Positions 46,386 through 61,115 of a DNA stretch of 64,000 nucleotides are shown piece after piece. Origin of the DNA: Wenzhouxiangella sediminis (lineage in GTDB: Bacteria; Pseudomonadota; Gammaproteobacteria; Xanthomonadales; Wenzhouxiangellaceae); contig NZ_QUZK01000018.1 in the NCBI RefSeq assembly GCF_003410055.1, positions 1 through 64,000 on the forward strand. Direction: 5' to 3'. Position 1 is the stretch's first letter. The number at the start of each line of letters is the position of its first letter. Below the pieces are notes generated by a model. That model did no database searches. It saw nothing but the letters and a program-made list of their open reading frames with translations, and was not told the DNA's origin. The translations under genes and the position numbers were made by a program.

Positions 46386-46759
46386 TCGAAAATTATACCC
46401 CTAGGGGGTATCGTGATCAACCAGAAATTGCCTTTAGAGCCAGGCAATCATTTATATTCAATAATTTACAATATATTCATGATGTGTTTTATAGGTCGTT
46501 CCACCGAGCAGTCGGGGGTATCCACGCTCCTCGATCGGCCGCCCGCCTGGGGCGAACGCCGTCGTTCAGTGCACGCGATCGGCGCCTGTATGACACAAGC
46601 GCCGAGCACGTTTGCCGCGACAGACTGATTCATCTGGCGGGCATCGCACCGCCCTCACGCTTCCCCTTCAAACCGGAGACGTGCCCTTCGTCCGCTCCCG
46701 TCTTCCCGGGGGAAGGCTCGGGGCCTTGATGACTCGCAGCTATGATCAGGAGCAACCAG
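46386..46759. other. 374-bp divergent region between csoR and the secreted HExxH protein
   Basis: No gene was found. The csoR-proximal end holds the copper operator (46395-46411). A 7-bp inverted repeat, ATTGCCT/AGGCAAT, lies at 46427-46448, followed by an unusually AT-rich run to about 46498, which probably contains promoters. The rest is of ordinary GC content. The small open frames here lack support. Confidence 0.5.
46395..46411. promoter_or_regulatory. CsoR-type operator
   Basis: ATACCCCTAGGGGGTAT is a near-perfect palindrome of C and G runs around TA, starting 10 bp upstream of the csoR ATG. C/G-tract palindromes of this kind are typical CsoR sites in front of copper pumps. Confidence 0.85.
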
Positions 46760-49066
46760 ATGAATACCGCAGGAGTGATTTCGACATCTATTGTCCGACC
46801 CGGCAAGGCTCCCGGGTGCGGACCCACCGACGATCGCAACGATCAGCGAAAGCCTCCGTTTGCCTCAAGCGCATTTTCGGCATTGCTTCTGACTCTGTTT
46901 GTGGTGAGCGGCATTGGGTCAGCGCTCGGAGGTCGGGCGAATGCGGCCGAGACCGAGGACAACGAACCGGCAGTCGCTTATCTTCGCTTCGAACCGATGA
47001 TTATCTTCAACGATGGGCAGGATGAAATGAGCCTCAAGGCGCGTGTGACAGGTTCGGTCTCCAAGGTAGAGGCCCGCCAGCGCTATCACGACGGCCTGAT
47101 ACAAGTGGATGGTCAGGACATGGATCTCGGGGAGCGATTCGAGCTGCATCATGCTGGAGACGGTATCTATGTTCGGGACGGCATCACTTCCAATCATGTT
47201 CAATCTCGCGCTCGAGCCGACATCATCGTTACCGATGAAGAAGGCGAAGAACATGAGTTCTTCAGAACGGACAGCTGGTTCATGGTGAACGACAAGCGCA
47301 CCCAGCGCCGCATTTTCGAGGTTTCCGAGGACGTGCGCATGAGCACGAACCTGATAAACATCCGAGCGGATGAGGAAATCTTCGACGTGCGCGCGTCCAC
47401 CGACGAGACCGAACCACCCAATCTGGAGAGAGTCGGCCAGACGGTTTACGAGCATTTCCCGGATGACTTCGATTTTCTTGCGGTTTTCACGACCACCAAC
47501 ACGGGGCCTTTCAGGTTCTACGTTGACGCCAAGAACAAAATCGAGGGCATCGGAAAGCCCAACTTCGACGATGCCCATTCCTTCGGCAGTGCCGGCAGGC
47601 TGCAGGGTGTCGCCTACCTCAACACCTCGACGGGGCAGCCCCTCATTCACGAACTGACCCACAACTTCGGTGTCTTCCTCGACCCCGACCTGGGACTGGA
47701 CGACGGCACGCCCCACTGGGGTGGCGTGGATATCCCGGGAACTCTGGGAGGGCTCGACTTCGAGCAACAGGGAGGCAATCAGTACAAGATAACCTGGTCA
47801 CCTTTCGACGTGGAATCCGAGTCGCTGTCGATGGCGCCCATGGAGTTGTACCTGTGGGGACTTTTGCCGGCCGAAGATGTGCCCGAGACGACTGTGCTAC
47901 ATGGCGTTGACCCTCGAGACCAAGAGGTTGGCGACGTCGTAACGCCTGAATCGGTTTCCTCGGTAACGATGGCCGACGTTCAGGCCATCCATGGACCCAG
48001 AGTGCCGTCGCCTGCCAATGCTTCCAGCAGATTCCGAATCGCGGCCGTGGTCGTGTCGGCCGGGCGATGGGCCACGGACGCGGAAATGGCCTTCTGGAGC
48101 GGGGTCATGGAACGATTCGGGGTCGAGGAAGGGACGGCGACAGTCCTGGAACATTTCGATCAAGCGCTTGCCGACGAATTCGGCCAAGCACCCCCGACGG
48201 CTACATTCGACTACCTCACCCAGGGGCGCGGAGAAATGAACTCCACCCTCGCCGGTGAATCTCACGACCTCGCGGGCCTCACGGGCGCCTGGCACGATCC
48301 GGCCAGCTCGGGACAGGGGTTCAACCTGCAGATGGCGCCTTCCGGTCTCTTTGGCTATTACTACGGTTACAGCGATGCAGGCGAAGATTTGTGGTTGGTG
48401 CTGGACCTGCATGAACAGGCGATCGAGTTCGGCGAGCCATTCACGCTCAAGGCATTTGCCGGAACAAGCGGTGTCTTCGGGGCGCCGAATGAAGCGACGG
48501 AATGGGGCAGGGTCACCTTCGAATTCCAGTCGTGCCAGGAAGGCGAGGCCTTGCTTACCAGTCACTCCGGTGACCAGGTTCAGGAGTTCGACCTGAAGCC
48601 AATAGCGCTGGTCGATGGCGCAAGCCAGGAGGACTGCCGATTGCTTCACCGAACCGATGGCGCCGACGCAATGGTGAATCTCAACGCCGCTTGGCACGAT
48701 CCCCAAACGAGCGGGCAAGGCTGGAATCTGGTGCGCACGACCGCCGGAATGTTCGGCTATTTCTATGGCTATACGGCCGACGGTGAACCGCTGTGGCTGG
48801 TCACGAAGGAAGTGATCGGCGATATCCAGTTGGGCCAGCCTGTCGAGTACACGCTGTTGACCAATACGACGGAAGCTGCGTCCTTCGAATCGCCGGCCCC
48901 ATCCACCGAACTCGAGACCTGGGGCACGGCGACGCTGACCTTCGAGAACTGCCGTACCGGAACTGCTGACATGCAGGGGATCGACGGCACTCAGGTTCAG
49001 GAGCTGGAGGTGGTGGCCACCACGCTCGGACTGCCTGCCTGCCATGATCCCGGGGGCGAAGACTAG
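46760..49066 (+). CDS. Secreted HExxH protein with duplicated C-terminal 'SGQG' repeats
   Basis: This 768-aa exported protein has a long basic n-region, a hydrophobic signal (FSALLLTLFVVSGIGSALGGRANA) and no other membrane segment. HELTHNFG at residues 297-304 fits HExxHxxG, the zinc site of many metallopeptidases, and PHWG lies about 20 residues later, so a protease is possible. The C-terminus carries two copies of a module starting WHDPxxSGQGxNL and containing a GYxYGY..G..LWLV segment, near residues 511 and 645. The start ATG 46760 has AGGAG seven bases upstream; 46742 is less likely. The overall family is not recognised. Confidence 0.72.
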   Translation: MNTAGVISTSIVRPGKAPGCGPTDDRNDQRKPPFASSAFSALLLTLFVVSGIGSALGGRANAAETEDNEPAVAYLRFEPMIIFNDGQDEMSLKARVTGSVSKVEARQRYHDGLIQVDGQDMDLGERFELHHAGDGIYVRDGITSNHVQSRARADIIVTDEEGEEHEFFRTDSWFMVNDKRTQRRIFEVSEDVRMSTNLINIRADEEIFDVRASTDETEPPNLERVGQTVYEHFPDDFDFLAVFTTTNTGPFRFYVDAKNKIEGIGKPNFDDAHSFGSAGRLQGVAYLNTSTGQPLIHELTHNFGVFLDPDLGLDDGTPHWGGVDIPGTLGGLDFEQQGGNQYKITWSPFDVESESLSMAPMELYLWGLLPAEDVPETTVLHGVDPRDQEVGDVVTPESVSSVTMADVQAIHGPRVPSPANASSRFRIAAVVVSAGRWATDAEMAFWSGVMERFGVEEGTATVLEHFDQALADEFGQAPPTATFDYLTQGRGEMNSTLAGESHDLAGLTGAWHDPASSGQGFNLQMAPSGLFGYYYGYSDAGEDLWLVLDLHEQAIEFGEPFTLKAFAGTSGVFGAPNEATEWGRVTFEFQSCQEGEALLTSHSGDQVQEFDLKPIALVDGASQEDCRLLHRTDGADAMVNLNAAWHDPQTSGQGWNLVRTTAGMFGYFYGYTADGEPLWLVTKEVIGDIQLGQPVEYTLLTNTTEAASFESPAPSTELETWGTATLTFENCRTGTADMQGIDGTQVQELEVVATTLGLPACHDPGGED

Positions 49067-49991: not shown

Positions 49992-51320
49992 TTACGCCGC
50001 CCGGGATTGCTGAGATCGCTGGCCGCCATTCCGTCCCCGTCCGCGGCCGTTGTTGCCGCGAGCAGATTTCTGACCCCGTGGGGCGCTGTTGCCCCGACCG
50101 CCACCGCGATTGCCGCCGTTGCCACGGCCTCCGCCGCCCTTGCCGCGGCCCTGGCGGGTCGGTGTCTTGCCGGCGTCCCTTGAAAGCGGCTCGGTCGGTT
50201 CGTAACCTTCGACGCCGTAGGTGGGAATCTCGACTTTGACCAGCTTGCGGATATCCTCGAACAATCCGTGCTCGGAACCGGCCACCAGCGAGACGGCGAG
50301 GCCGTCGCGACCGGCCCGTCCGGTGCGGCCGATGCGGTGAACGTAGTCTTCGGGCACGTTGGGAATGTCGTAATTGACCACGTGCGGCAGCTGGTCGATA
50401 TCCAGCCCGCGTGCGGCGATGTCGGTCGCAACGAGCACTCTGATCTTGTTCTTCTTGAACTCGCTCAATGCTTTGGTGCGGGCACCCTGGCTCTTGTTGC
50501 CGTGGATGGCCGCCGCCGGCAGTCCATCGGTCTCGAGCTGACGGGCCAGGCGGTTGGCGCCGTGCTTGGTACGGGTGAAGACCAGCACCTGCTGCCAGTT
50601 GTTCGAGCCGATCAGCCAGGACAGCACTTCCCGCTTCTTCTTCTGGTCGACGCGGAACGCCTGCTGTGCGATGGCTTCCACGGTGGAATTCGGCGGTGAA
50701 GTCTCGACACGCTCCGGATTGTTCAGATAGCTTTGGGCGAGCTGGCTGATTTCCTTCGAGAAGGTGGCCGAGAACAACAGGGTCTGCCGTTGATTAGGCA
50801 GCGACTTGACGATGCGCTCGATGGCCGGGCGAAAGCCCATGTCGAGCATGCGGTCGGCTTCGTCGAGCACCAGGAACTCGATCCTGGAGAGATCCACGGT
50901 GCCGCGCTGCATATGGTCGATGAGGCGGCCCGGCGTGGCGACGAGTACGTCGATGCCGCGCTGGAGCTTGGTGATCTGCGGGTTGATGTTGACGCCGCCG
51001 AAGATCTCCAGCGATCGCAGCTTGATGTGCCGGCTGTAGGCGCGGAGATTCTCGTTGACCTGTGCGGCCAGCTCGCGGGTGGGCGTCAGGATCAGCGCAC
51101 GCGGCTGTCGCTGGTGACCGCTGCGCTCGCTCAGGCGATGCAGCAGCGGCAGCGTGAATGCGGCGGTCTTGCCGGTGCCCGTCTGGGCGCTGGCCATGAC
51201 ATCGCGGCCGGCCATCACGAAGGGGATGGCGCGTTCCTGGATGGGCGTGGGGGCGGTATAGCCCTGCTCGCTGACGGCACGCAGCAGTTCGGCCTTCAGG
51301 CCGAGGGAATCGAATTTCAT
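49992..51320 (-). CDS. rhlE: DEAD-box RNA helicase (RhlE-type)
   Basis: This 442-aa helicase has the Q motif ([14 protein letters not shown]), Walker [13 protein letters not shown] box [13 protein letters not shown], and motif [15 protein letters not shown]. The C-terminal 60 residues form an RGG/Gly-Arg-Asn-rich tail typical of RhlE and likely binding RNA. The start [16 protein letters not shown] at 51320 matches the family; the frame is open upstream to 51497 but without a better start. AGGA precedes the ATG. The 5' region is about 267 bp long. Confidence 0.92.
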
Positions 51321-51587
51321 TTTTTTGGTCCTTGAGTCGGGCCAAGGCATGCAATATCCCCGGAAGTTTCGGGGGAGGTACAAATCGGGGAGAGGCCTTG
51401 GCCGGAATCCTTTCGATTCCATCAATCCGCGAGAGGGCATCCGCTGTAACCTTTGCAGGGAAGCGCAAAGCACGAACGCCGCTGCAAGATAGCACAAGTC
51501 GAAAGCGTGCGGGGAAGTTTAGCGTGGGACCGATGTCCGTTGGGATCACGGACCGACCGTGTCGGCCGGTCCGCGCAGCCCATCAGC

Positions 51588-52001
51588 TTATTCGATGCGC
51601 AGGAGTTCAGCCTCGTACTCGTCGATCATGTGGGTTTCGCGCAGCTGCCGCACCTTCTCGACAATGCGCTGCACGTGGTCAAGACTCGCGCCCGGGTCGC
51701 TGTCGTCGACGGCATAGCTCAGCTTGTGGTTCGGGGTGGCCATACCGTAAGGCGGCCTGTAGCTGCACGGAGACGTCGACACGACCGTCCAGCCGCGAAT
51801 GTTGACATCGTAGGCCAGAGCGTCCTGGTAGGCCTGGTTGCAAGCTGCCCAGCTTGAGTACGGGCCCACGACAAAGCCCTGTCCGCTGTCGAACCAGGCG
51901 CTGCCGTAGTAGCCGCCACCAGTGCCGCTTGGCGGCACGGCCGCCGCCATGCTGCTGGCCACGATCAGGAGAAGGGCGACAAGAATGCGATGTTTTTTCA
52001 T
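51588..52001 (-). CDS. Hypothetical small secreted protein
   Basis: This 137-aa protein has a clear signal peptide (MKKHRILVALLLIVASSMAAA). The mature part has a Gly/Tyr/Ser-rich segment (GTGGGYYGSAWFDSGQGFVVG), two cysteines (in AACNQAY and SPCSYR) that may pair, and an acidic helical C-terminus. No known family was recognised. SGQGF recalls the repeat of the secreted protein at 46760-49066, though the match is short. It is transcribed toward rhlE and divergent from another secreted protein. Confidence 0.65.
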   Translation of the reverse strand: MKKHRILVALLLIVASSMAAAVPPSGTGGGYYGSAWFDSGQGFVVGPYSSWAACNQAYQDALAYDVNIRGWTVVSTSPCSYRPPYGMATPNHKLSYAVDDSDPGASLDHVQRIVEKVRQLRETHMIDEYEAELLRIE

Positions 52002-52132
52002 TGTTGAACTCCACTAGTTTGAATTTCGCTTTCGGCGCTTGCCGAGACCGCCGCTTCGGCGGCCGGAGTCCACACTGCACCGAGGTTGACCATCGGACCA
52101 GCAAATAGTGGTGATCAAAGCGGGCAAGTAAG

Positions 52133-52219
52133 TTGTTCCCGACCGTTCCCGCGCTGTTTGGGCAAATGTAGCTTATTGATTAATAAGCTTTAATATTTAT
52201 TGTTCCCAGAACGTCCCGC
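52133..52219. promoter_or_regulatory. Repeat-bearing AT-rich spacer between two divergent secreted-protein genes
   Basis: TTGTTCCC-N6-TCCCGC occurs at 52133-52152 and again at 52200-52219 in the same orientation, 67 bp apart. Between them AGCTTATT and AATAAGCT form a perfect 8-bp inverted repeat around GATT (52170-52189). The whole region lies between ATGs at 52001 and 52286 and is much richer in A and T than its surroundings. It may be a control site for one or both genes; no known binding site was recognised. Confidence 0.45.
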
Positions 52220-52285
52220 AATTTCTGCTGCTACCCGACCGCGCCTGGCCTAGGATTGGAGTGACTCATCAACGGAGATCCTGGT

Positions 52286-52795
52286 ATGCATCGAGCGAAA
52301 TGTCGACTGATGACAGCCGCCACCGTGCTTTCGGTCGGTATCGCAACCGGCGCATTGGCTCACAACCCTCTCGATCACCCGGACTGGTGCACGGAAAATG
52401 CGCGTCTCGTGGTGGTCGATGAGTTCGAATGGGATGGCGAAATGCTGGCGCAGGAGGTGCGCGAAGCGTCGAAAGGCAGCGACGATACCTGCAGTTCGCC
52501 GCAGTCCGGGGATACCGGCATGAAGACATGCGGCCAGTTCGACGACGATTGGGGTGCGGTCAACGCAATGGCAATCCATCACTGCGACGGTTACGCCGTT
52601 CGCTTCGTGGACGCCACGCACCCCGACCACGGTACGGTCATTCACATCGCAGAGGGGCCGGAGGCCTTCAACGACGAAGAAGGGCACCACGATCGCTATC
52701 GCGCGCGAATGGGACTGCGCGCCATGTGCGTTCGTTGCGAACCGGTCGTGCTCGAGCCGCTCAGGCCGGGCAAACCGGTCGATCCGGTACGTTGA
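52286..52795 (+). CDS. Hypothetical secreted Cys/His-containing protein
   Basis: This 169-aa protein has a signal peptide (TAATVLSVGIATGALA) ending before HNPLDHPDWCTENARL. Six cysteines in the mature part (in WCTEN, DTCSS, KTCGQ, HHCDG, MCVRC) and numerous His residues suggest disulfides or metal binding in the periplasm. No family was recognised. It has no operon partner in the same direction. Confidence 0.6.
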   Translation: MHRAKCRLMTAATVLSVGIATGALAHNPLDHPDWCTENARLVVVDEFEWDGEMLAQEVREASKGSDDTCSSPQSGDTGMKTCGQFDDDWGAVNAMAIHHCDGYAVRFVDATHPDHGTVIHIAEGPEAFNDEEGHHDRYRARMGLRAMCVRCEPVVLEPLRPGKPVDPVR

Positions 52796-52819
52796 CGGGG
52801 ACGGGGCGGGGCTGCGCCA

Positions 52820-55030
52820 TCAGGCCAGCCCCAGTCTCCGTGCGTTTCGCTTGACCTTTTCTATACCGGCCTCGATGCGCCCGTCATCTTCGCCCGCACA
52901 CTCCCCGAGCACGAAATAAGCGGTTCGCAGCACTTCCCGCCAGCGCGGCTGCTTCGGTAATTGCGCCAGGCTCAGGTAACGGTCCATCGCCCGCGTCCGC
53001 AGCCGACCCTCGTCGATCGTCACGCGCCAGATGCCGCTGCTTTCGGCGAGGTCGACACGCGTCTTGCCGGTCGCACGCTCCCAGGTCTCCAGGCTGCCGG
53101 CCATCAACTCGACCAGGTCCTGCCTGAATTCCCCGCGAATGTCCTGCTGCACGGGCTGCAGCTGCTCCGAGAGCAATTGCAGGTCGCCGTCGATCGAGGC
53201 CCAGCGCTGGTAGAGGTCGCCCTGAATGCCGCCTTGCTCGAGCGCGGCTTGCAGCACGCTGCCGAAGGACTGGATCCGGGAGAAGTGGCGGTTGATCAGG
53301 GGGATCAGCTCTTCGGCCGCGTGCGGATGCTGATCGGGCGTGCGGATGTTGACGACCTGGAGTTCCTCCTCGAGATTGAGCGGCTCCAGATCCAGTCGCA
53401 GTTCCGTGCCGCGGCCCGTGGTGACGGCCACGTCGCGGCGCTCCGCCTGGAGACGTTGCCAGGTGCCTTCGCCGAACAGCTGATCGAGCGTGCTGTCTTC
53501 TGGCAGGGAGTCCAGCTCCAGCAGGCGGCAGGCCGCCTGGTTGGCGAAGACGATGCGATCGTTGGCGTCCAGGCTCAGCAAGGCGTCCGTGCCAAGGTCC
53601 AGTAGCTGTTGCAGCTGTTCGCGCGATGTCCGCAAGGACCGGGCAGAGGCCTTGTGACCCTCGATCACTTGCTGGAGACGCTCGCGGCGTTCCGCCTCGC
53701 GACGATTGCGGCGCCGGTGCAGTCCGACCGCCACCAGCAGGATCGATCCCATACCGGTCGCGCCGCCTATGGCGATCAGGGCCGATCGGTTTCTCTGGTT
53801 GGCCAGTTCGAGATCCTGCATGCGGTTGTCGGCCGCAAGCCGTTCGATCTCGCGTTGCTTCTCGGAGACCTCGAAAAGCACCCGGCTGCGGTTGAGTTCG
53901 CGGTCTCGTTCCCGCTGCGCCCGGGCCAGGCTTTCCGTGTTGTATCGGCGATGCCAGGCCAGCGCCGCTTCGAGATCGCCGGTCTCTTCGTGTAAATCGG
54001 CGACCTGTTCGAGAATCTGCAGGCGGCGGTCGCCCGGCCAGGCCGATGCCTCTTCGAGAGCGCCCTCGAGCAGGGCCAGTGCCGTATCCGCTTGCCCCGA
54101 TGCGGCCAGCCTTCTGGCCTGGATGGAGAACCAGCGCGGCGGGAGATCGATGCCCGAAAGCGTGGCCGTGGCGCGCGCGGTCTCGAGCCAGCGAGTCACT
54201 TCCTTCTGCCTTTCCAGCCCATCGGCAATCCCCGCCAGCTGCACGGCGGTGCGGACTTCGTCCGGCGGGCGATCCATCTTCTGAAATGTCGCATACGCTT
54301 CCCGAGCCAGTGCCATGGCTTCCTCACCCCGTTCCTGCTCGGCCAGCAGGCGGGCCAGGCTTTCGGTGCTGTGCGCCACGTGATGATGCGCATCCGCGCG
54401 CCGGTGGTGCGTGAGCGCCTGTTCGTAGAAATCCTCGGCTCGTCCGAGATCGCCGAGATCGGTCAGCAGGTCGGCAATGTTGTTGAGCGTGCTGCCGAGC
54501 TGCTCCTCTCCCAGGTTTCGCTTCATTTCCAGGCTGGTGGTATAGGCGTCGAGCGCTTCCTGGTGAGCCCCGATGTGCCGGTAGGCGTTGCCGAGATCAT
54601 TGTGGCTGCGCGCGATCAGGGCGGGATCATCGTGTTGCGAGGCCAGTGCCAGCGCGCCGCGAAAGAAGGTCAGGGCGCTGGAACTGTTCCTGCGCACGTG
54701 GGCGAGGATGCCCTGTTCACGGGCAAGCCGATACTGGTTCAGCCACTGACCGGAGAACTCCGGTGTCCGCTGGATTTCGGCATGCAGTCGTTCGGCCTCG
54801 GCGTAGCGGCCCGCTTCACGCGCCAGAATGGCGAGCTGAAAGAGGGCAGTGAGTGCCGCGGAATGATCGTTGCGCTCGCGGGCCAGAGTCAGTGCGCTCC
54901 GGCAAACGGAGGCCGCCGATTCCGACTGCTGCTGACGGGCCTTGACGCAATCGCCGGCGTTCGCGGTGGGCTCGGAGCCGGAAACCGCGGAAATCAGCGC
55001 AAGAAGAAACGGGGCGAACAGGCTCGACAC
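52820..55030 (-). CDS. Exported TPR sensor protein with membrane segment and PAS-like domain
   Basis: This 736-aa protein starts at GTG with a signal peptide, then has tetratricopeptide repeats on the periplasmic side (about residues 40-350), a coiled coil, a membrane helix near residues 413-435 and a cytoplasmic PAS-like domain near residues 465-560 (LLSLDANDRIVFANQAACRLLELDS). The rest has no histidine-kinase, GGDEF, EAL or helix-turn-helix signature that I can see. It ends in a Trp-rich, Arg-rich module (SLETWERATGKTRVDLAESS region, about 637-720). It looks like a sensor with an unusual output. It lies 108 bp downstream of tpm. Confidence 0.68.
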   Translation of the reverse strand: MSSLFAPFLLALISAVSGSEPTANAGDCVKARQQQSESAASVCRSALTLARERNDHSAALTALFQLAILAREAGRYAEAERLHAEIQRTPEFSGQWLNQYRLAREQGILAHVRRNSSSALTFFRGALALASQHDDPALIARSHNDLGNAYRHIGAHQEALDAYTTSLEMKRNLGEEQLGSTLNNIADLLTDLGDLGRAEDFYEQALTHHRRADAHHHVAHSTESLARLLAEQERGEEAMALAREAYATFQKMDRPPDEVRTAVQLAGIADGLERQKEVTRWLETARATATLSGIDLPPRWFSIQARRLAASGQADTALALLEGALEEASAWPGDRRLQILEQVADLHEETGDLEAALAWHRRYNTESLARAQRERDRELNRSRVLFEVSEKQREIERLAADNRMQDLELANQRNRSALIAIGGATGMGSILLVAVGLHRRRNRREAERRERLQQVIEGHKASARSLRTSREQLQQLLDLGTDALLSLDANDRIVFANQAACRLLELDSLPEDSTLDQLFGEGTWQRLQAERRDVAVTTGRGTELRLDLEPLNLEEELQVVNIRTPDQHPHAAEELIPLINRHFSRIQSFGSVLQAALEQGGIQGDLYQRWASIDGDLQLLSEQLQPVQQDIRGEFRQDLVELMAGSLETWERATGKTRVDLAESSGIWRVTIDEGRLRTRAMDRYLSLAQLPKQPRWREVLRTAYFVLGECAGEDDGRIEAGIEKVKRNARRLGLA

Positions 55031-55138
55031 GGCAGGGTTGCGATGCTGGAGAGGACCCGGCGACCAGTATACGCAGGGTCGGGCACCGGGCCGCCTCGAA
55101 TCCGACCGAAGGCGCCGGAACCGCGACGAGCTCCGTTT

Positions 55139-55783
55139 CTACACCGGGATGACGCGCCAGGCGCACTCCTGCAGGTCCGTCAGCCCTCGCTGGGCGAAGC
55201 CGGGATGATCGGCGAGCGCATCCCGGCGCTCGATCAGCTCGAAGCGGAAGCCGGGATAGTCGCCGAGTTCGTCGGCGGGCACAGAAAAAGGCGGGCCGTC
55301 CATCGAGGCCTGGTCGTATTCGAAGGTCACCAGCAATCCGCTGGCATTGTCCGCGAGAAGGCTGCCGAGGTGATCGATGTACCTGCCGCGCATTTCCTGC
55401 GGCAAGGCGACGAGGGCCGCTCGATCGTAGAACATCTGAAAGGGCTCGTCGTTCAGGTAGTCGAAGAAGTCGCCCTCGAATATCTCGACGTTGCCGGCCC
55501 GCCAGTGTTGCAGCCGGCCCGAGCGCGTGCATGTCGGTGCCTTCTTCCATTCCCGGTAGAACTCTTCGACGGCGCGACCGCTGAGTTCAACGCCGACCAC
55601 GCCGTGTCCGCGCTCGGCCAGCCAGCGCAGGTCGAGGCTCTTGCCGCACAGCGGCACCATCACCCGCCCGGCCCGGCCGCCGGATATTTCATCCCAGTGA
55701 CGTTTCAGTGCCCAGTGGATTTCGGATCGATGAAAGCCGATTTCGCGGCGATGCCAGCGTTCGTGCCAGAAGTGTGTCTCCAT
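55139..55783 (-). CDS. tpm: Thiopurine S-methyltransferase family protein
   Basis: This 214-aa SAM-dependent enzyme has the bacterial TPMT order: FWHERWHRREIGFH, MVPLCGKSLDLRWLAERGHGVVGVELS (SAM loop) and YDRAALVALP. Bacterial Tpm methylates thiopurines and also tellurite or selenite; physiological substrate is unknown. Standard start at 55783. Confidence 0.92.
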   Translation of the reverse strand: METHFWHERWHRREIGFHRSEIHWALKRHWDEISGGRAGRVMVPLCGKSLDLRWLAERGHGVVGVELSGRAVEEFYREWKKAPTCTRSGRLQHWRAGNVEIFEGDFFDYLNDEPFQMFYDRAALVALPQEMRGRYIDHLGSLLADNASGLLVTFEYDQASMDGPPFSVPADELGDYPGFRFELIERRDALADHPGFAQRGLTDLQECAWRVIPV

Positions 55784-55973: not shown

Positions 55974-56759
55974 ATGCACAGGCGAGTTTATCAGCCTTTT
56001 CTTATGGTCGGGCTGCTGCTGTTTCCCCTGCTTCTCTCGGCCCAGTCCGGGTACGAGGGAAGGAACCTCGAAGCACTGGCCGAAGAGCTGGTGCGCATTC
56101 GCGGCGAAGTCGAGTCGCTCAACGCCGAACTCAACCGGATGCAGGAGCAGCATCGCAACGAGATGAGCTCGCTGGCGGCACAGAAGGGCGAACTCGAGGC
56201 CACGCTGCGCCGCGAGCAATTGCGCGTCGATCAGCTCGAAGAGGACCTCGCCCGCAACCGCGAGCGCGCGGAGCAGGCCGGCATCGCCGGCGAATCGCTC
56301 GTGCCGGTGGCGCAGGATGCGATCGCGTCGCTCAGGCAGCATATCCAGGGTTCCTTGCCCTTCAAGCCCCAGGAGAGACTGGCGGCTGTCGAAGAGATCG
56401 AGACGCAGCTGCAAGCCGGCTCGCTCTCGCCGCCGCGCGCGGTCAATCGCCTGTGGGGTTTCTTCGAAGACGAACTGCGCCTGACCCGGGAGAACGGCCT
56501 CTACAGCCAGGTCATCGACCTCAACGGCGAGGAAGTGTTGGCCGACGTCGCGCGCCTCGGCACGGTGGCGATGTACTTCAAGACCCGTGACGGCCACTAC
56601 GGCCAGGCCGAGCAGCGAGGCGGCGACTGGCGCTTCACGCGCCTGGACGAGCGCGCTGCCATCCAGCGCGTCGACGCCCTGTTCGAATCCCTCAGAAAGC
56701 AGATCCGCACCGGCTACTTCGAACTGCCCAACGGCGCCATCCGGCTGGAGTCCGAATAA
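55974..56759 (+). CDS. DUF3450 periplasmic coiled-coil protein of the TonB system
   Basis: This 261-aa protein has a signal peptide (VYQPFLMVGLLLFPLLLSAQ), a long coiled coil (about residues 30-110) and a C-terminal DUF3450 domain (YSQVIDLNGEEVLADVARLGTVAMYFKTRDG). Members are encoded first in TonB2-type operons and are thought to help the TtpC/ExbB complex; the molecular role is unclear. Its stop overlaps the next ATG by one base (TAATG). Confidence 0.88.
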   Translation: MHRRVYQPFLMVGLLLFPLLLSAQSGYEGRNLEALAEELVRIRGEVESLNAELNRMQEQHRNEMSSLAAQKGELEATLRREQLRVDQLEEDLARNRERAEQAGIAGESLVPVAQDAIASLRQHIQGSLPFKPQERLAAVEEIETQLQAGSLSPPRAVNRLWGFFEDELRLTRENGLYSQVIDLNGEEVLADVARLGTVAMYFKTRDGHYGQAEQRGGDWRFTRLDERAAIQRVDALFESLRKQIRTGYFELPNGAIRLESE

Positions 56760-58216
56760 TGAGCATCCGCAATTCCCACATCCTGATCCTGCTCCTGGCC
56801 GCCTGCCTGGCCCTGCCGGCGATGGCCCAGGAGGCCGAATCCGGGCAGGAAGAGGCCGCAACCGCGGAGTCGGCGCCGGCCAACACCGCCCAGGCTGAGC
56901 AGGCCGAATCCGGGCCGGAACCGGTCGCGGCGCAAGCGCCTTCGCTCGAGCAGGCCTACCAGAAGGAATTCGCGTTCCTTCAGGGTCAGAAGCGCGACCT
57001 GGCGCGTCGTATCGCGGAGTTCGAGCAAACCAGCCAGTCCGACCGCCGGGAACTGCAGTCGCAGATCCGCTCGCTCGAGCGCCGGGTGGTCGAGGCCACC
57101 AGCCGCGGCGATCGCCTCGATGAACAGGTGTTCGAGTCGGAGCGATCGGTCGAAGCCGCGCGCGACAACGTCAACCTGCTGGCCAGTACCTTCCTGCAGG
57201 CCGAAGCCACCATCGACGGCTGGGAAGCCCCCGCCCTCGAGGGTGACGAAGTGCCGCAGCCCGAAGACATCACGGCGATGTTCGCCACCGCTCTCGCCGA
57301 GCTGGATCGGCGCGGCGGCGTGCGGCGGGACAGCGGCGAATTCTTCCTCGCCGACGGTACGCGGGTGAGCGGCGACATCATTCAGGTCGGCCGCATTGCC
57401 AGCTACGGGGTGAGCGAACGCGGCGCCGGTGTGCTGGCGCCGGCCGGCGAGGGTGAACTGAAACTCTGGAACGAAGCCTCGGCCGAGGCAGCCCGTTCGA
57501 TGGCCGCCGGCCAGATGGTTTCCCCGCTTCCGATCTTCATCTACGAAACGCTCAGCGCCGAAGTGGAAAAGAAGGGCGCCAAGGGCGTGTTCGAGACGAT
57601 CTCGGACGGCGGCGTGATCGGCTGGATCATCTTCTTCCTGGGTTTGCTGGCCGCCGCACTGGTCATCCTGCGCGCGGTCTTCCTGGGACGGGCCGGCGCT
57701 TCGACCGGCAGGATTCTCGACGACATCTCCGGCCACGTGCGCCGGGGCGACAAGGAGGCGGCGCTTTCGGTCCTCAGGAAGCGCCAGGGCGCGACCGCCC
57801 GCGTGGTGGCCTCGGCCATCCGCAATCTCGACCGCGACCGCGAACACCTCGAGGACATCGTCTCCGAGTCGATCCTGCACGAAAGCGGGCACCTCAACCG
57901 CTTCGGCGCTTTCATCATGGTGATCGCCGCCGTCTCGCCGTTGCTGGGCCTGCTCGGCACGGTCACGGGCATGATCTCGACCTTCGACGTCATCACCGAG
58001 TTCGGCACGGGCGATCCCAAGCTGCTCTCGGGCGGCATCTCGATCGCGCTGGTCACCACCGAACTGGGCCTGATCGTGGCCATTCCCACGCTGCTGTTCG
58101 GCAACCTGCTGTCGAGCTGGGCCGAGCGCATCAAGGACGACATGGAGAAGGCCGCGCTGCGGGTGACCAACCAGTACACCGAAGCGCGCGCTGAAATGGA
58201 GCCGGGTCAGGCCTGA
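56759..58216 (+). CDS. MotA/TolQ/ExbB proton channel with a periplasmic extension (TtpC-like)
   Basis: This 485-aa protein has a signal peptide, a periplasmic coiled coil (about residues 60-135), then a membrane helix and the TolQ/ExbB channel domain at about 270-465 (MVIAAVSPLLGLLGTVTGMISTFDVI). The long N-terminal region is the mark of TtpC, required for TonB2 signalling in Vibrio. It sits between DUF3450 and a short ExbB, with one-base overlaps on both sides. Confidence 0.88.
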   Translation: MSIRNSHILILLLAACLALPAMAQEAESGQEEAATAESAPANTAQAEQAESGPEPVAAQAPSLEQAYQKEFAFLQGQKRDLARRIAEFEQTSQSDRRELQSQIRSLERRVVEATSRGDRLDEQVFESERSVEAARDNVNLLASTFLQAEATIDGWEAPALEGDEVPQPEDITAMFATALAELDRRGGVRRDSGEFFLADGTRVSGDIIQVGRIASYGVSERGAGVLAPAGEGELKLWNEASAEAARSMAAGQMVSPLPIFIYETLSAEVEKKGAKGVFETISDGGVIGWIIFFLGLLAAALVILRAVFLGRAGASTGRILDDISGHVRRGDKEAALSVLRKRQGATARVVASAIRNLDRDREHLEDIVSESILHESGHLNRFGAFIMVIAAVSPLLGLLGTVTGMISTFDVITEFGTGDPKLLSGGISIALVTTELGLIVAIPTLLFGNLLSSWAERIKDDMEKAALRVTNQYTEARAEMEPGQA

Positions 58217-58824
58217 TGCTCGGGGATCTCCTCAACGATTTCGCGACCTACTTCGAGCTGGGCGGCTACGTCATGCCGCCGCTGGTCCTGGCCACGGTCG
58301 TTCTGTGGTTCGCCATCGGCTATCGCTTCGCCGCACTCAAGCGCGGCAATGTCCGGTCGGTGCGCCGAATCATCCAGAAGCATCCGGACGGCTTCGGGCG
58401 CGAGCCGCGCGGGGTGATCGAGAAAGCGATCGAGCAGGGCATCTCGATTGGCCGTTCGGCACACGGAGACCTTCGGCGCCTGCTCGACGATGCCTTCTGG
58501 CCGATCGAGCGCGAAGTGAGCCGTTTCCACAAGCTGATCATGACGATCGTCGCGGTAGCGCCCCTGATGGGCCTGCTCGGCACGGTGGTCGGCATGATCG
58601 AAACCTTCGATTCGCTTGGCGACATGTCGCTGTTCGCCCAGTCGGGCGGGATTGCCGGCGGCATCTCCCAAGCGCTCTTCACGACTCAGATGGGCCTGGC
58701 CGTGGCCATTCCCGGTCTGATCGTCGGCGGTCTGCTCGAGCGGCGGGCGGCGGTCATCCGGCTGGAACTCGCCCAGGTCAAGGACATTCTCTGCGCACGT
58801 GCGCAGCAAGGCAGCCCGGTATGA
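58216..58824 (+). CDS. exbB2: ExbB-type proton channel protein (second TolQ-family protein of the operon)
   Basis: This 202-aa protein has an N-terminal helix (about residues 15-36) and two channel helices (LIMTIVAVAPLMGLLGTVVGMIETF region and GLAVAIPGLIVGG). It matches ExbB of TonB2-type systems. It overlaps its neighbours by one and four bases. Confidence 0.9.
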   Translation: MLGDLLNDFATYFELGGYVMPPLVLATVVLWFAIGYRFAALKRGNVRSVRRIIQKHPDGFGREPRGVIEKAIEQGISIGRSAHGDLRRLLDDAFWPIEREVSRFHKLIMTIVAVAPLMGLLGTVVGMIETFDSLGDMSLFAQSGGIAGGISQALFTTQMGLAVAIPGLIVGGLLERRAAVIRLELAQVKDILCARAQQGSPV

Positions 58825-59231
58825 GATATCGCGAACGCGCGAACACCGAACAGAACGTCGACATTTCGCCGCTGATCGACATGGTGTTCATCCTGCTCAT
58901 CTTCTTCATGGTGTCGACGACCTTCGTCAAGGACATGAAGCTCGATCTCGACCGGCCCAGTGCCAGTTCGTCCGAGCAGGCCTCCACCAAGGCGATCCGG
59001 CTCTATATCGACAACGCCGGCGACACATTCCTCGACGGACAGCCCATCCGCGTATGGGTCATCCAGAGCAAGCTTCGCGACATGCTGCAGGGCGCGGCCT
59101 CGCAGTCGGTGCTGGTGGTGACCGACAGCAACGTGCCCGCCCGGAAACTGATTGAAGTGGTCGACCAGGCCCGCCGTTCCGGCGCGGCCGACGTCGGCGT
59201 CGCCACGGTCGAAGAAGCCGGCTCCGGCTGA
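58821..59231 (+). CDS. exbD2: ExbD-type biopolymer transport protein
   Basis: This 136-aa protein has one helix (SPLIDMVFILLIFFMVSTTF, with conserved Asp) and an ExbD periplasmic domain. The start ATG 58821 overlaps the ExbB stop. The longer open frame upstream is inside exbB2. Confidence 0.9.
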   Translation: MRYRERANTEQNVDISPLIDMVFILLIFFMVSTTFVKDMKLDLDRPSASSSEQASTKAIRLYIDNAGDTFLDGQPIRVWVIQSKLRDMLQGAASQSVLVVTDSNVPARKLIEVVDQARRSGAADVGVATVEEAGSG

Positions 59232-59269
59232 ACGCAAGTATTCGTGCAAGGACACGAGGAGGTAATGAC

Positions 59270-59902
59270 ATGACATCCGAATTCAAGAAGTGGACCTACG
59301 GGCTCGCCTTCATGTTCGCCGGCTCGGTGCTGATCATCGGCACGCTGCTGATGATCAACCGCCTGGCCTCCGGCCCCGATTCGCAGGAGCTGGCCAAGCA
59401 GACCAGCTTCTCGGTCGAGAAGCGGCCCGAGCCGCCGCCGCGCAAGGTCGTCAAGCAGGAACGGCCCGAACCGCGCCGCTCGCGAGACATCAACCCGCCG
59501 ATGGTGGATCTCGACACCTCCCTGTCGGGCATCGACATGGGCATCCCGGGCGTGAGCGCCGACGACCTGGGCAGCCTGCGAGACGAGTTGTTGGGCGACA
59601 CGCAGGACGTGGTCATGACCGACGATTCGGTCGACCAGCCGCCGCGTCCGACCCGCCAGACGCCGCTGCCGTATCCGGCCTCGGCCCGCAAGCAGGGCGT
59701 GGAGGGCTACGTGGTGCTTTCGCTGTTGATCAGCGCCGCCGGCGAGATCGAGAAGGTGCAGGTGCTCGAATCGAATCCGGTCGGCCTGTTCGAGGACGCC
59801 GCGGTGCAGGGCGTGCAGAACTGGCGTTTCGATCCGGCGCAATACCAGGGCCGCAACGTGCGCGTCTGGGCCAAGCAGCGCATTCGCTTCGACCTCAGCT
59901 AG
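59270..59902 (+). CDS. tonB: TonB energy-transducing protein (TonB2-type)
   Basis: This 210-aa protein has an N-terminal anchor (LAFMFAGSVLIIGTLLMI), a short Pro/Arg-rich linker (RPEPPPRKVVKQERPEPRR) and a C-terminal TonB domain (PYPASARKQGVEGYVVLSLL to WRFDPAQYQGRNVRVW). The linker is short, as in TonB2 types. It is 38 bp after exbD2, with GAGGT before the ATG. Confidence 0.93.
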   Translation: MTSEFKKWTYGLAFMFAGSVLIIGTLLMINRLASGPDSQELAKQTSFSVEKRPEPPPRKVVKQERPEPRRSRDINPPMVDLDTSLSGIDMGIPGVSADDLGSLRDELLGDTQDVVMTDDSVDQPPRPTRQTPLPYPASARKQGVEGYVVLSLLISAAGEIEKVQVLESNPVGLFEDAAVQGVQNWRFDPAQYQGRNVRVWAKQRIRFDLS

Positions 59903-59927
59903 GCGCCGGCAGGAGAGACGGGATTCC

Positions 59928-61115
59928 ATGAGGCCTTACCTGACAACCTGGCTGCTGCTGCTCGCGCTGCTGTCGGCACCCGCCGCAGCCCAGGAAGAGG
60001 CGGCATCTTCGCCGGACGAGGAGGTCGATCGCCTGTCGCTGGCGGCGCTGCTTATCGGCGACGGCAATTATGACCGGGCCCGTGGCGTCCTCGCCGCGGT
60101 CGATTTCGACAATCCCGAAATCGATCGGGTTCGGTATCACAGCCTGGACGGCCTGGTGGCCCTGAACCTCGACGAGCTTGCCCGGGCCGAGTCGGCCTTC
60201 GAGCGGGCCATCGAGGCCGGGGGCGAAGCCGAAGCCGAAGCCCCGGCCGCCGACGTGGTCTGGCTCTACCTGGCCCAGGCGCGTTTCGGCCAGGAAGACT
60301 ACGCCGGCACGCTCGACGCCCTCGACGGCGCCAATCCCGAAACCACGGAATTGCCCTCGGTCTACCTGATGCGCGCCCAGTCGCACTGGCAGATGGAGGA
60401 CCTGGACGCCGCCTGGCGAGTCCTGACGCGCGGCGCCGGACGCTTTCCCGACCGTGCGGGGGACTTCACGCGCCAGCAGGTCTTCCTCCTGGTCGAGCAG
60501 GGGCTCTACCAGGAAGCCGCCGATCTGGGGCAGCGCTTCATGGCCCGGGGCAAGGCGACCGTCAGCGATGCCCTGGCCATCGGCAATGCCCTGCGCGAGG
60601 CCGGCGAAACCGACCAGGCCCTGCGCATCCTCGAAGCCGCCCGCCTGGAAGACAGCGACAACGTGCGCCTGGCGCGCGTCCTGGCCCAGACCTGGCTCGA
60701 CCGCGAACAGGTTCTGCCGGCGGCCGACATCCTGCACGAAGCCGCCCGACTCGATCCGGAACTGATGGCCGAAGCCGCCGAACTCTATCGTCGCGCCGGC
60801 TGGCTGATGCAGGCGCTCACCCTCAATGCGCAGGTCATCGACCAGGCAAAGAAGCTCAAGCAGCGCCTGGCGATCTTCATCGAGCTCGGCCGGTTCGACC
60901 AGGCCGCCGGCATGGAGCCCGACCTGGTGCGAACGGGCCTGCTGTCGGAAGAGGACATCCGCTACGCGCTGGCCTATGCCCTGTTCAAGACCGGCCGCTA
61001 CGAGCAGGCCGAGTCCCACCTGAGCCTGCTGACGCGCAACGACCTGTTCCGCAAGGCCAACGAGCTCCGGCGGGCCATGGAGCAGTGCCGCGACGAGCCG
61101 TGGCTCTGCACCTGA
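59928..61115 (+). CDS. Exported tetratricopeptide-repeat protein of the TonB operon
   Basis: This 395-aa protein has a signal peptide (TTWLLLLALLSAPAAAQ) and tetratricopeptide-like helical repeats from about residue 35 to the end. TPR proteins are regularly the last gene of this kind of TonB2 operon and are essential for uptake in some species (TtpB-like), acting in the periplasm. It starts 25 bp after tonB and is followed by a receptor gene. Confidence 0.85.
   Translation: MRPYLTTWLLLLALLSAPAAAQEEAASSPDEEVDRLSLAALLIGDGNYDRARGVLAAVDFDNPEIDRVRYHSLDGLVALNLDELARAESAFERAIEAGGEAEAEAPAADVVWLYLAQARFGQEDYAGTLDALDGANPETTELPSVYLMRAQSHWQMEDLDAAWRVLTRGAGRFPDRAGDFTRQQVFLLVEQGLYQEAADLGQRFMARGKATVSDALAIGNALREAGETDQALRILEAARLEDSDNVRLARVLAQTWLDREQVLPAADILHEAARLDPELMAEAAELYRRAGWLMQALTLNAQVIDQAKKLKQRLAIFIELGRFDQAAGMEPDLVRTGLLSEEDIRYALAYALFKTGRYEQAESHLSLLTRNDLFRKANELRRAMEQCRDEPWLCT

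Follow-up and report, generated by a model that had tools for sequence, protein, structure and literature searches.

We found that the output module of a 736-residue sensor protein from Wenzhouxiangella sediminis is a known ChiS-family DNA-binding domain (matched over residues 635–725). The protein is probably a kinase-less, membrane-bound one-component transcription factor that would bind DNA and activate a convergent gene, which encodes a small exported protein of a family we call A, via a CCC-N7/8-CCC direct repeat upstream of that gene. This reading starts from four computed results: 1) the identity of the domain, 2) the pairing of the two genes, 3) the conservation of the repeat, and 4) its fixed distance to a -10-like hexamer. 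All features lie within the window, as we call the whole stretch of 64,000 nucleotides that was analyzed, and their coordinates are listed in Table 1.

Table 1. Features of the regulator locus, with positions counted from the first nucleotide of the window
Feature	Position	Strand	Remarks
rhlE	49992..51497		
Family B, small exported protein, divergent from A	51588..52001	minus	Found in 20 of 81 sources scanned, window included
Distal operator candidate, CCC repeat	52133..52151	plus	153 bp before the start codon of A
Proximal operator candidate, CCC-N7-CCC direct repeat	52200..52218	plus	86 bp before the start codon of A
-10-like hexamer, TAGGAT	52251..52256	plus	33 nt past the second CCC of the proximal operator candidate
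Family A, small exported protein, convergent with the regulator	52286..52795	plus	Mature part predicted from the His codon at 52361
TPR-TM-PAS-ChiS-DBD regulator gene	52820..55030	minus	736 aa, GTG start; Pfam and AlphaFold2 model
ChiS-family DNA-binding domain, residues 635–736	52823..53128	minus	7KPO match, residue mapping, model
PAS domain, predicted cytoplasmic, residues ~470–563	53342..53623	minus	PAS_8 E 5.1e-06; model
Membrane helix, residues ~417–440	53711..53782	minus	Hydropathy; model
TPR region, predicted periplasmic, residues ~25–352	53975..54958	minus	Pfam; model
tpm	55139..55783		

The original prediction was that the protein is a sensor with TPRs, a membrane helix, and a PAS-like domain, which Pfam, hydropathy, and an AlphaFold2 model bear out, and that its conserved C-terminal end could be a new output or interaction domain, which the search results contradict. 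When the last 126 residues were searched against the PDB, they matched 7KPO with an E value of 1.9e-20, and a profile of 12 such C-terminal domains had 7KPO, an HTH variant, as its only match at E up to 1 (E 7.9e-28); a clear match to a known output domain was the very result that had been named as speaking against novelty. 7KPO is the crystallized DNA-binding domain of Vibrio cholerae ChiS, spanning residues 1024–1129, in which two short strands lie between H2 and H3 of a helix-turn-helix (HTH) variant, giving a helix-sheet-helix that its authors call a cryptic HTH (PMC8092284). Of 77 aligned residues, 35 are identical between the regulator and ChiS, and four of the five positions critical for DNA binding in ChiS (R1074, K1078, R1090, and R1092) are basic in the regulator (R680, R684, R696, and R698). 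The fifth, R1068, which is poorly conserved (PMC8092284), corresponds to E674. W668 and the four arginines are invariant in all 47 aligned full-length proteins, window included, so the suspected conservation of the C-terminal end (guessed at residues 630–736) proved well placed. Structure prediction, which had been proposed as a check, gave elements H658–665, E671–673, E676–678, H680–684, and H697–710, which, compared by their order, form a helix-sheet-helix in the model of the whole protein. The domain occupies the extreme C terminus of the regulator, and the ChiS family has been found at C termini only, with 587 of its 3,829 matches in non-ChiS architectures (PMC8092284).

It had also been noted that no output motif could be seen. 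This stands for kinases, cyclases, and phosphodiesterases, and nothing is visible by eye, but a DNA-binding domain is present. It escaped notice because no Pfam model matches any of the 12 C-terminal domains of this kind, and NCBIfam gave only two insignificant matches, each confined to a single member (E 0.066 and 0.088). Likewise, Pfam finds nothing in the regulator C-terminal of the PAS domain. A fold search with the whole model returned only TPR-type proteins among the best 50 matches listed; the absence of 7KPO from this whole-protein listing is no evidence against the assignment. As regards other identities, a degenerate kinase, cyclase, or phosphodiesterase was rejected, with no such Pfam model at E up to 1, and the NCBIfam kinase models FimS (residues 33–243, the TPRs), MASE3_PAS_HK, and PnpS (the PAS domain) matched the sensor part only, far below their cut-offs.

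From N to C terminus, Pfam, hydropathy, and the model place a signal peptide, periplasmic TPRs, a single membrane helix, the PAS domain, and the C-terminal domain. The TPRs are matched by TPR_12 (E 2.2e-26) and further TPR models, the best stretches above noise spanning residues 115–358, and PAS_8 matches residues 471–514. There is one hydrophobic stretch at the N terminus (residues 1–19) and one internally (residues 417–435). Since a signal peptide is thus followed by a later membrane helix, the TPRs are probably periplasmic, and the PAS domain and C terminus cytoplasmic. The AlphaFold2 model, built from 47 sequences (mean pLDDT 84.6, pTM 0.57), consists of helix pairs up to about residue 349, a long helix (353–464) crossing the membrane, the PAS-like domain (470–563), and two linker helices (572–598 and 605–623) that lead into the C-terminal domain. 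Near the N terminus, C28 and C43 are likewise invariant across the 47 aligned proteins (that of the window among them), which fits an oxidizing compartment, and a disulfide between them is possible. HisKA, HATPase_c, and receiver domains are absent from the regulator (Pfam, E up to 1).

We found the ChiS-family domain in 9 of 61 related genomes (the window's own included), in 3 of 30 genomes of the genus, and in 9 of 369 genomes drawn evenly from the class. A scan of genome contigs confirmed 87 places, with 79 named loci among the matches listed. These were split into 46 loci of the TPR type (47 proteins when aligned with that of the window), 27 of another type, and 6 that were left out because of short or broken frames (L047, L056, L060, L081, L105, and L109). 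TPRs are found by Pfam in all 47 TPR-type proteins and PAS_8 in 32, and the 25 commonest of their 37 Pfam families include no HisKA, HATPase, or receiver. The proteins of the 27 other loci are mostly histidine kinase/receiver/PAS proteins built like ChiS (receiver in 22, HATPase in 20, and 7TMR-DISM in 17). The TPR-type regulator belongs to an architecture already recorded in the survey of the ChiS family, in which TPR and PAS are among the accompanying domains given in the legend of Fig. 5A (PMC8092284). A phage or plasmid origin was rejected: no relative was confirmed in viral contigs (full-length query, seven pattern matches), no match was found in phages, and the five records from the plasmid collection all showed less than 60% identity.

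A survey of homolog surroundings, which had also been proposed, revealed that the regulator is paired with family A. Iterated HMM searches of all ORFs gave 58 A matches, window included, in 49 of 81 sources, and A lies inside the fetched locus in 44 of the 46 named TPR-type loci, a count that includes L034, where the match is a poor fragment. In the two exceptions, the contig ends just downstream of the gene (L088) or A is missing locally (L053), and both genomes have A elsewhere. In L062 the nearest downstream A is ~2.6 kb away, and several Lysobacter-type loci have more than one A. Outside the TPR-type group, A was found in L047, L094, and L098 (of 33 named loci). At the level of whole genomes, A is present in 7 of 61, i.e., in 7 of the 9 with the ChiS-family domain versus none of the 52 without (Fisher p 8e-8, computed on related genomes that are not independent). 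One genome (G047) has three domain genes adjoining three A genes, and two others (G044 and G051) have the domain with no detectable A.

Family A proteins start with a signal peptide, with Ala at -1 in 55 of 58 and at -3 in 43 of 58. The first residue after the predicted cleavage site, which was placed by eye, is His in 52 of 58. A later His-His pair is conserved too, with each of its residues present in 56 of 58, as are several cysteines. Alignments took 43 and 42 of the 58 matches, the 15 omitted being the L034 fragment, L051, and divergent paralogs. The window member matches nothing in Pfam or NCBIfam, and among 42 members we observed scattered weak matches to these databases in one or two members each (best E 0.00063). 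At E up to 10, no PDB sequence matches family A. The model of mature A (pLDDT 84.1) gave no Foldseek match in the PDB at E ≤ 0.001, only four insignificant ones, and its best VIA Z score, 4.8, was to an unrelated protein. The predicted first-residue His and the conserved HH pair liken A to proteins that bind metal through an N-terminal His, and A may do the same.

Upstream of A, a direct repeat is common to Shewanella-, Rheinheimera-, Pleionea-, Lysobacter-, and Wenzhouxiangella-type loci. The repeat was first spotted by eye and tested afterwards with search patterns derived from it; partly independent checks come from its fixed distance to the -10-like hexamer, from controls with the reversed pattern, and from the B and C genes (see below). 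Among the 56 of 58 A genes with at least 150 bp upstream, CCC-N7/8-CCC occurs within 250 bp in 52 (200 dinucleotide shuffles: mean 10.9, maximum 19), and the opposite strand has it in 23 too. The repeat starts 70–130 bp before the A start codon in 49 of 56, versus 17 for the reverse complement and 4.2 for mononucleotide shuffles. Between 60 and 140 bp upstream, it is found in 49 of 56 A, 10 of 21 B, and 5 of 11 C genes, and in 2 of 50 of the regulator's own genes; the controls gave 23 of 422 other conserved ORFs, a figure that may be lowered by taking longest frames for these ORFs and a signal-peptide rule for the starts of A, B, and C, and 3.2% of random windows. After removal of similar A upstream regions, the repeat was kept in 39 of 46. 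In 34 of 49 promoters, TAnnnT starts 33–34 nt after the repeat (1,000 shuffles: mean 0.9, maximum 5), as it does in 24 of 39 in the reduced set of dissimilar upstream regions. T, G, and G stand 10–12 nt after the repeat in 33, 29, and 31 of 49 promoters. A -35-like element lies ~9 nt past the repeat end, and the -35 region after the proximal copy in the window looks poor by eye. Such a fixed spacing to the -10-like hexamer means that the repeat abuts the -35 region, where activators bind. We consider CCC-N7/8-CCC a candidate operator of the ChiS-type regulator. The available portions of PMC11856585 and PMC10208484 contain no letters of the V. cholerae ChiS site for comparison.

Strong sites are rare and local. 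An exact pattern made from the window sites and that of G026, another genome of the genus, matches twice in the window's genome, both times here, and once in G026, at its A gene. It is absent from G010 and G017, which are without the regulator, and from G009, whose contig ends ahead of the A promoter. In two Rheinheimera genomes, one Arsukibacterium genome, and one gammaproteobacterial MAG, seven of eight sites are at the regulator locus (reversed-pattern control, 0). In four Shewanella genomes, four of six exact sites are at the locus, and with up to one mismatch there are 12 matches versus 6 for the reversed control. Of the two remaining exact sites, that in L164 has no ORF start (at least 80 aa) near it, and that in L170 lies ~100 bp before an exported ORF. 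This 405-aa ORF of Shewanella nanhaiensis (L170:191-1408), fibronectin-III-like by eye, is on a contig other than the regulator's and is a possible unlinked operator target. With up to two mismatches, the window's genome gave 41 matches versus 30 for the reversed control, which is no clear excess, so that a wider regulon cannot be separated from background; the distal window copy itself scores 14.5, below the 16.2 of a match at window position 69. In G051, which lacks A, a similar repeat is present ~140 bp ahead of a different exported ORF next to the regulator, but the 6 kb scanned contain six pattern matches in all.

These data bear on how A might be controlled. An improbable alternative is that the ChiS-type protein, bound to the repeat, represses A until the signal releases it. 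The sign of regulation is not fixed by any computed result, and the two window copies lie 67 bp apart; two spaced operator copies are an arrangement that repressors also use. However, the repeat ends ~9 nt before the -35-like element, upstream of the promoter rather than over it, the -10-like hexamer is 33–34 nt past the repeat in 34 of 49 promoters, and ChiS itself is an activator (PMC8092284). Quite unlikely as well is that the repeat is bound by some other regulator, under which A would also stand, and that the TPR-ChiS protein acts elsewhere. A and the regulator are so tightly linked that co-conservation alone cannot assign the site to the protein, and G044 and G051 retain the regulator without A. 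Against this, strong sites cluster at the regulator locus (seven of eight in four genomes), some of the B and C genes have the repeat upstream as well, and no exact copy occurs in two related genomes that lack the TPR-ChiS regulator. A new interaction or output domain at the C terminus, suggested by the want of a Pfam model or significant NCBIfam match, is contradicted by the 7KPO match and the conserved DNA-critical residues and is extremely improbable.

We return to activation of A by the regulator as the reading that most likely holds, despite points that count against it: the repeat precedes no more than 10 of the 21 B genes and 5 of the 11 C genes, the window B gene has none in its own orientation 60–140 bp upstream, G044 and G051 have the domain without A, and only four of six Shewanella sites are at the locus. 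Moreover, G+C-rich DNA contains many CCC pairs, so that part of the B matches may be due to chance. We infer that a periplasmic signal or ligand would be sensed by the TPR domain and relayed along the long membrane-crossing helix and the PAS domain to the ChiS-family domain, which would bind DNA while attached to the membrane. Its binding to CCC-N7/8-CCC just upstream of the -35 region would activate A as the main target and, in many relatives, nearby exported proteins (B and C) as well.

Family C (L084:4548-5078 and 10 similar loci) is a distant homolog of A without the N-terminal His ('AVPWC'). It lies just upstream of the regulator and in the same direction in Shewanella-, Rheinheimera-, Pseudoalteromonas-, and Pleionea-type loci, and inverted operator pairs are seen near its start in several loci. 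In Lysobacter-type loci, a strong operator match lies upstream of the gene for a large exported protein that carries an F5/8-type galactose-binding domain (L062:7738-9840 and L075:2654-4891).

The window has B, A, and the regulator between rhlE and tpm. We compared this site in the 12 genomes of the genus that have both genes at the cut-offs used, the window being the twelfth. The two genes are adjacent (gap of ~75–190 bp) in G016, where they are so on two contigs, and in G026; they are 4.4–4.5 kb apart, with other genes between them, in G010 and G024, and distant or on separate contigs in seven genomes. Positions 51498–55138 thus form a variable site that is empty in G016 and G026 and holds a B-A-regulator cassette in the window. 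In G010 it contains genes for a TolB-like 892-aa protein and an M20-type peptidase, and in G024 for a similar peptidase and a hydrolase-like protein, all named by eye. G026 has its own B, A, and regulator elsewhere in the genome. Taken together, these comparisons suggest that the three genes move as a unit. Farther out, positions 55974–61115 encode DUF3450, two MotA/TolQ/ExbB proteins, TonB, and a TPR protein, all in one direction, which looks like an ordinary TonB energy-transduction operon, and a 774-aa ORF at 46742–49066 (plus strand), a putative gene, has no Pfam match at E up to 0.001.

The part played by A could go beyond that of a target. V. cholerae ChiS is kept inactive by its periplasmic partner CBP when chitin is absent (PMC10208484), and A, by analogy, could act as partner or ligand of the regulator rather than as its target alone. 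In a closed loop, metal-carrying exported A would be the ligand, or the carrier of the ligand, of the TPR domain, and the regulator would turn on A; this is a speculative scheme that we regard as rather unlikely.

The domain and the TPR architecture are already known, and what is new here is their surroundings, i.e., the pairing with A and the repeat. The available portion of PMC8092284 names no target for the 587 non-ChiS proteins with the domain. The direct repeat offers a concrete operator candidate, together with target genes, for one branch of ChiS-domain proteins. It makes testable how a helix-sheet-helix reads DNA and how a kinase-less, membrane-tethered factor activates a promoter. Family A adds a recognizable set of exported proteins, whose window member, with its predicted N-terminal metal-binding His, lies outside Pfam and NCBIfam.

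How does this system compare with those already known? The regulator falls in the same group as the TPR architectures of PMC8092284, the available portion of which does not report the targets, operators, and neighbor genes added here. It shares with ChiS the domain by sequence, its C-terminal place, the predicted helix-sheet-helix, and basic residues at four of five DNA-critical positions, but it differs 1) at two of these positions (R1068 is E674 and K1078 is R684), 2) in having no histidine kinase or receiver, 3) in that predicted periplasmic TPRs replace the ChiS sensor, and 4) in its candidate targets. ToxR, CadC, and TcpP are membrane-bound transcription factors that, like the regulator, combine a periplasmic part, a membrane helix, and a cytoplasmic DNA-binding domain in one chain, whereas in the regulator the DNA-binding domain is C-terminal, giving the opposite orientation, and has another fold, and a PAS domain follows the membrane. 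ToxR and TcpP appear in PMC11856585. For A, the nearest likeness is to histidine-brace proteins, which a 2025 paper searches for by their N-terminal His (PMC12537917). A is not among the classes DUF4198, DUF6702, Ang-1, and Ang-2 given in the available part of that paper and has no fold match, yet the mature protein is predicted to begin with an exposed His, and a later HH is retained.

Rap and NprR chains are among the fold neighbors of the regulator model (best 50 matches listed). RRNPP receptors such as these are cytosolic and bind short peptides. In both systems, the gene of a TPR receptor lies beside that of a small exported product it may control, although the TPRs of the regulator are predicted to be periplasmic by hydropathy rather than cytosolic and the neighbor is a folded protein of ~145 residues. 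If the closed loop were true, RRNPP receptor/propeptide pairs would have a periplasmic counterpart in Gram-negative bacteria, in which a metal-binding protein replaces the peptide.
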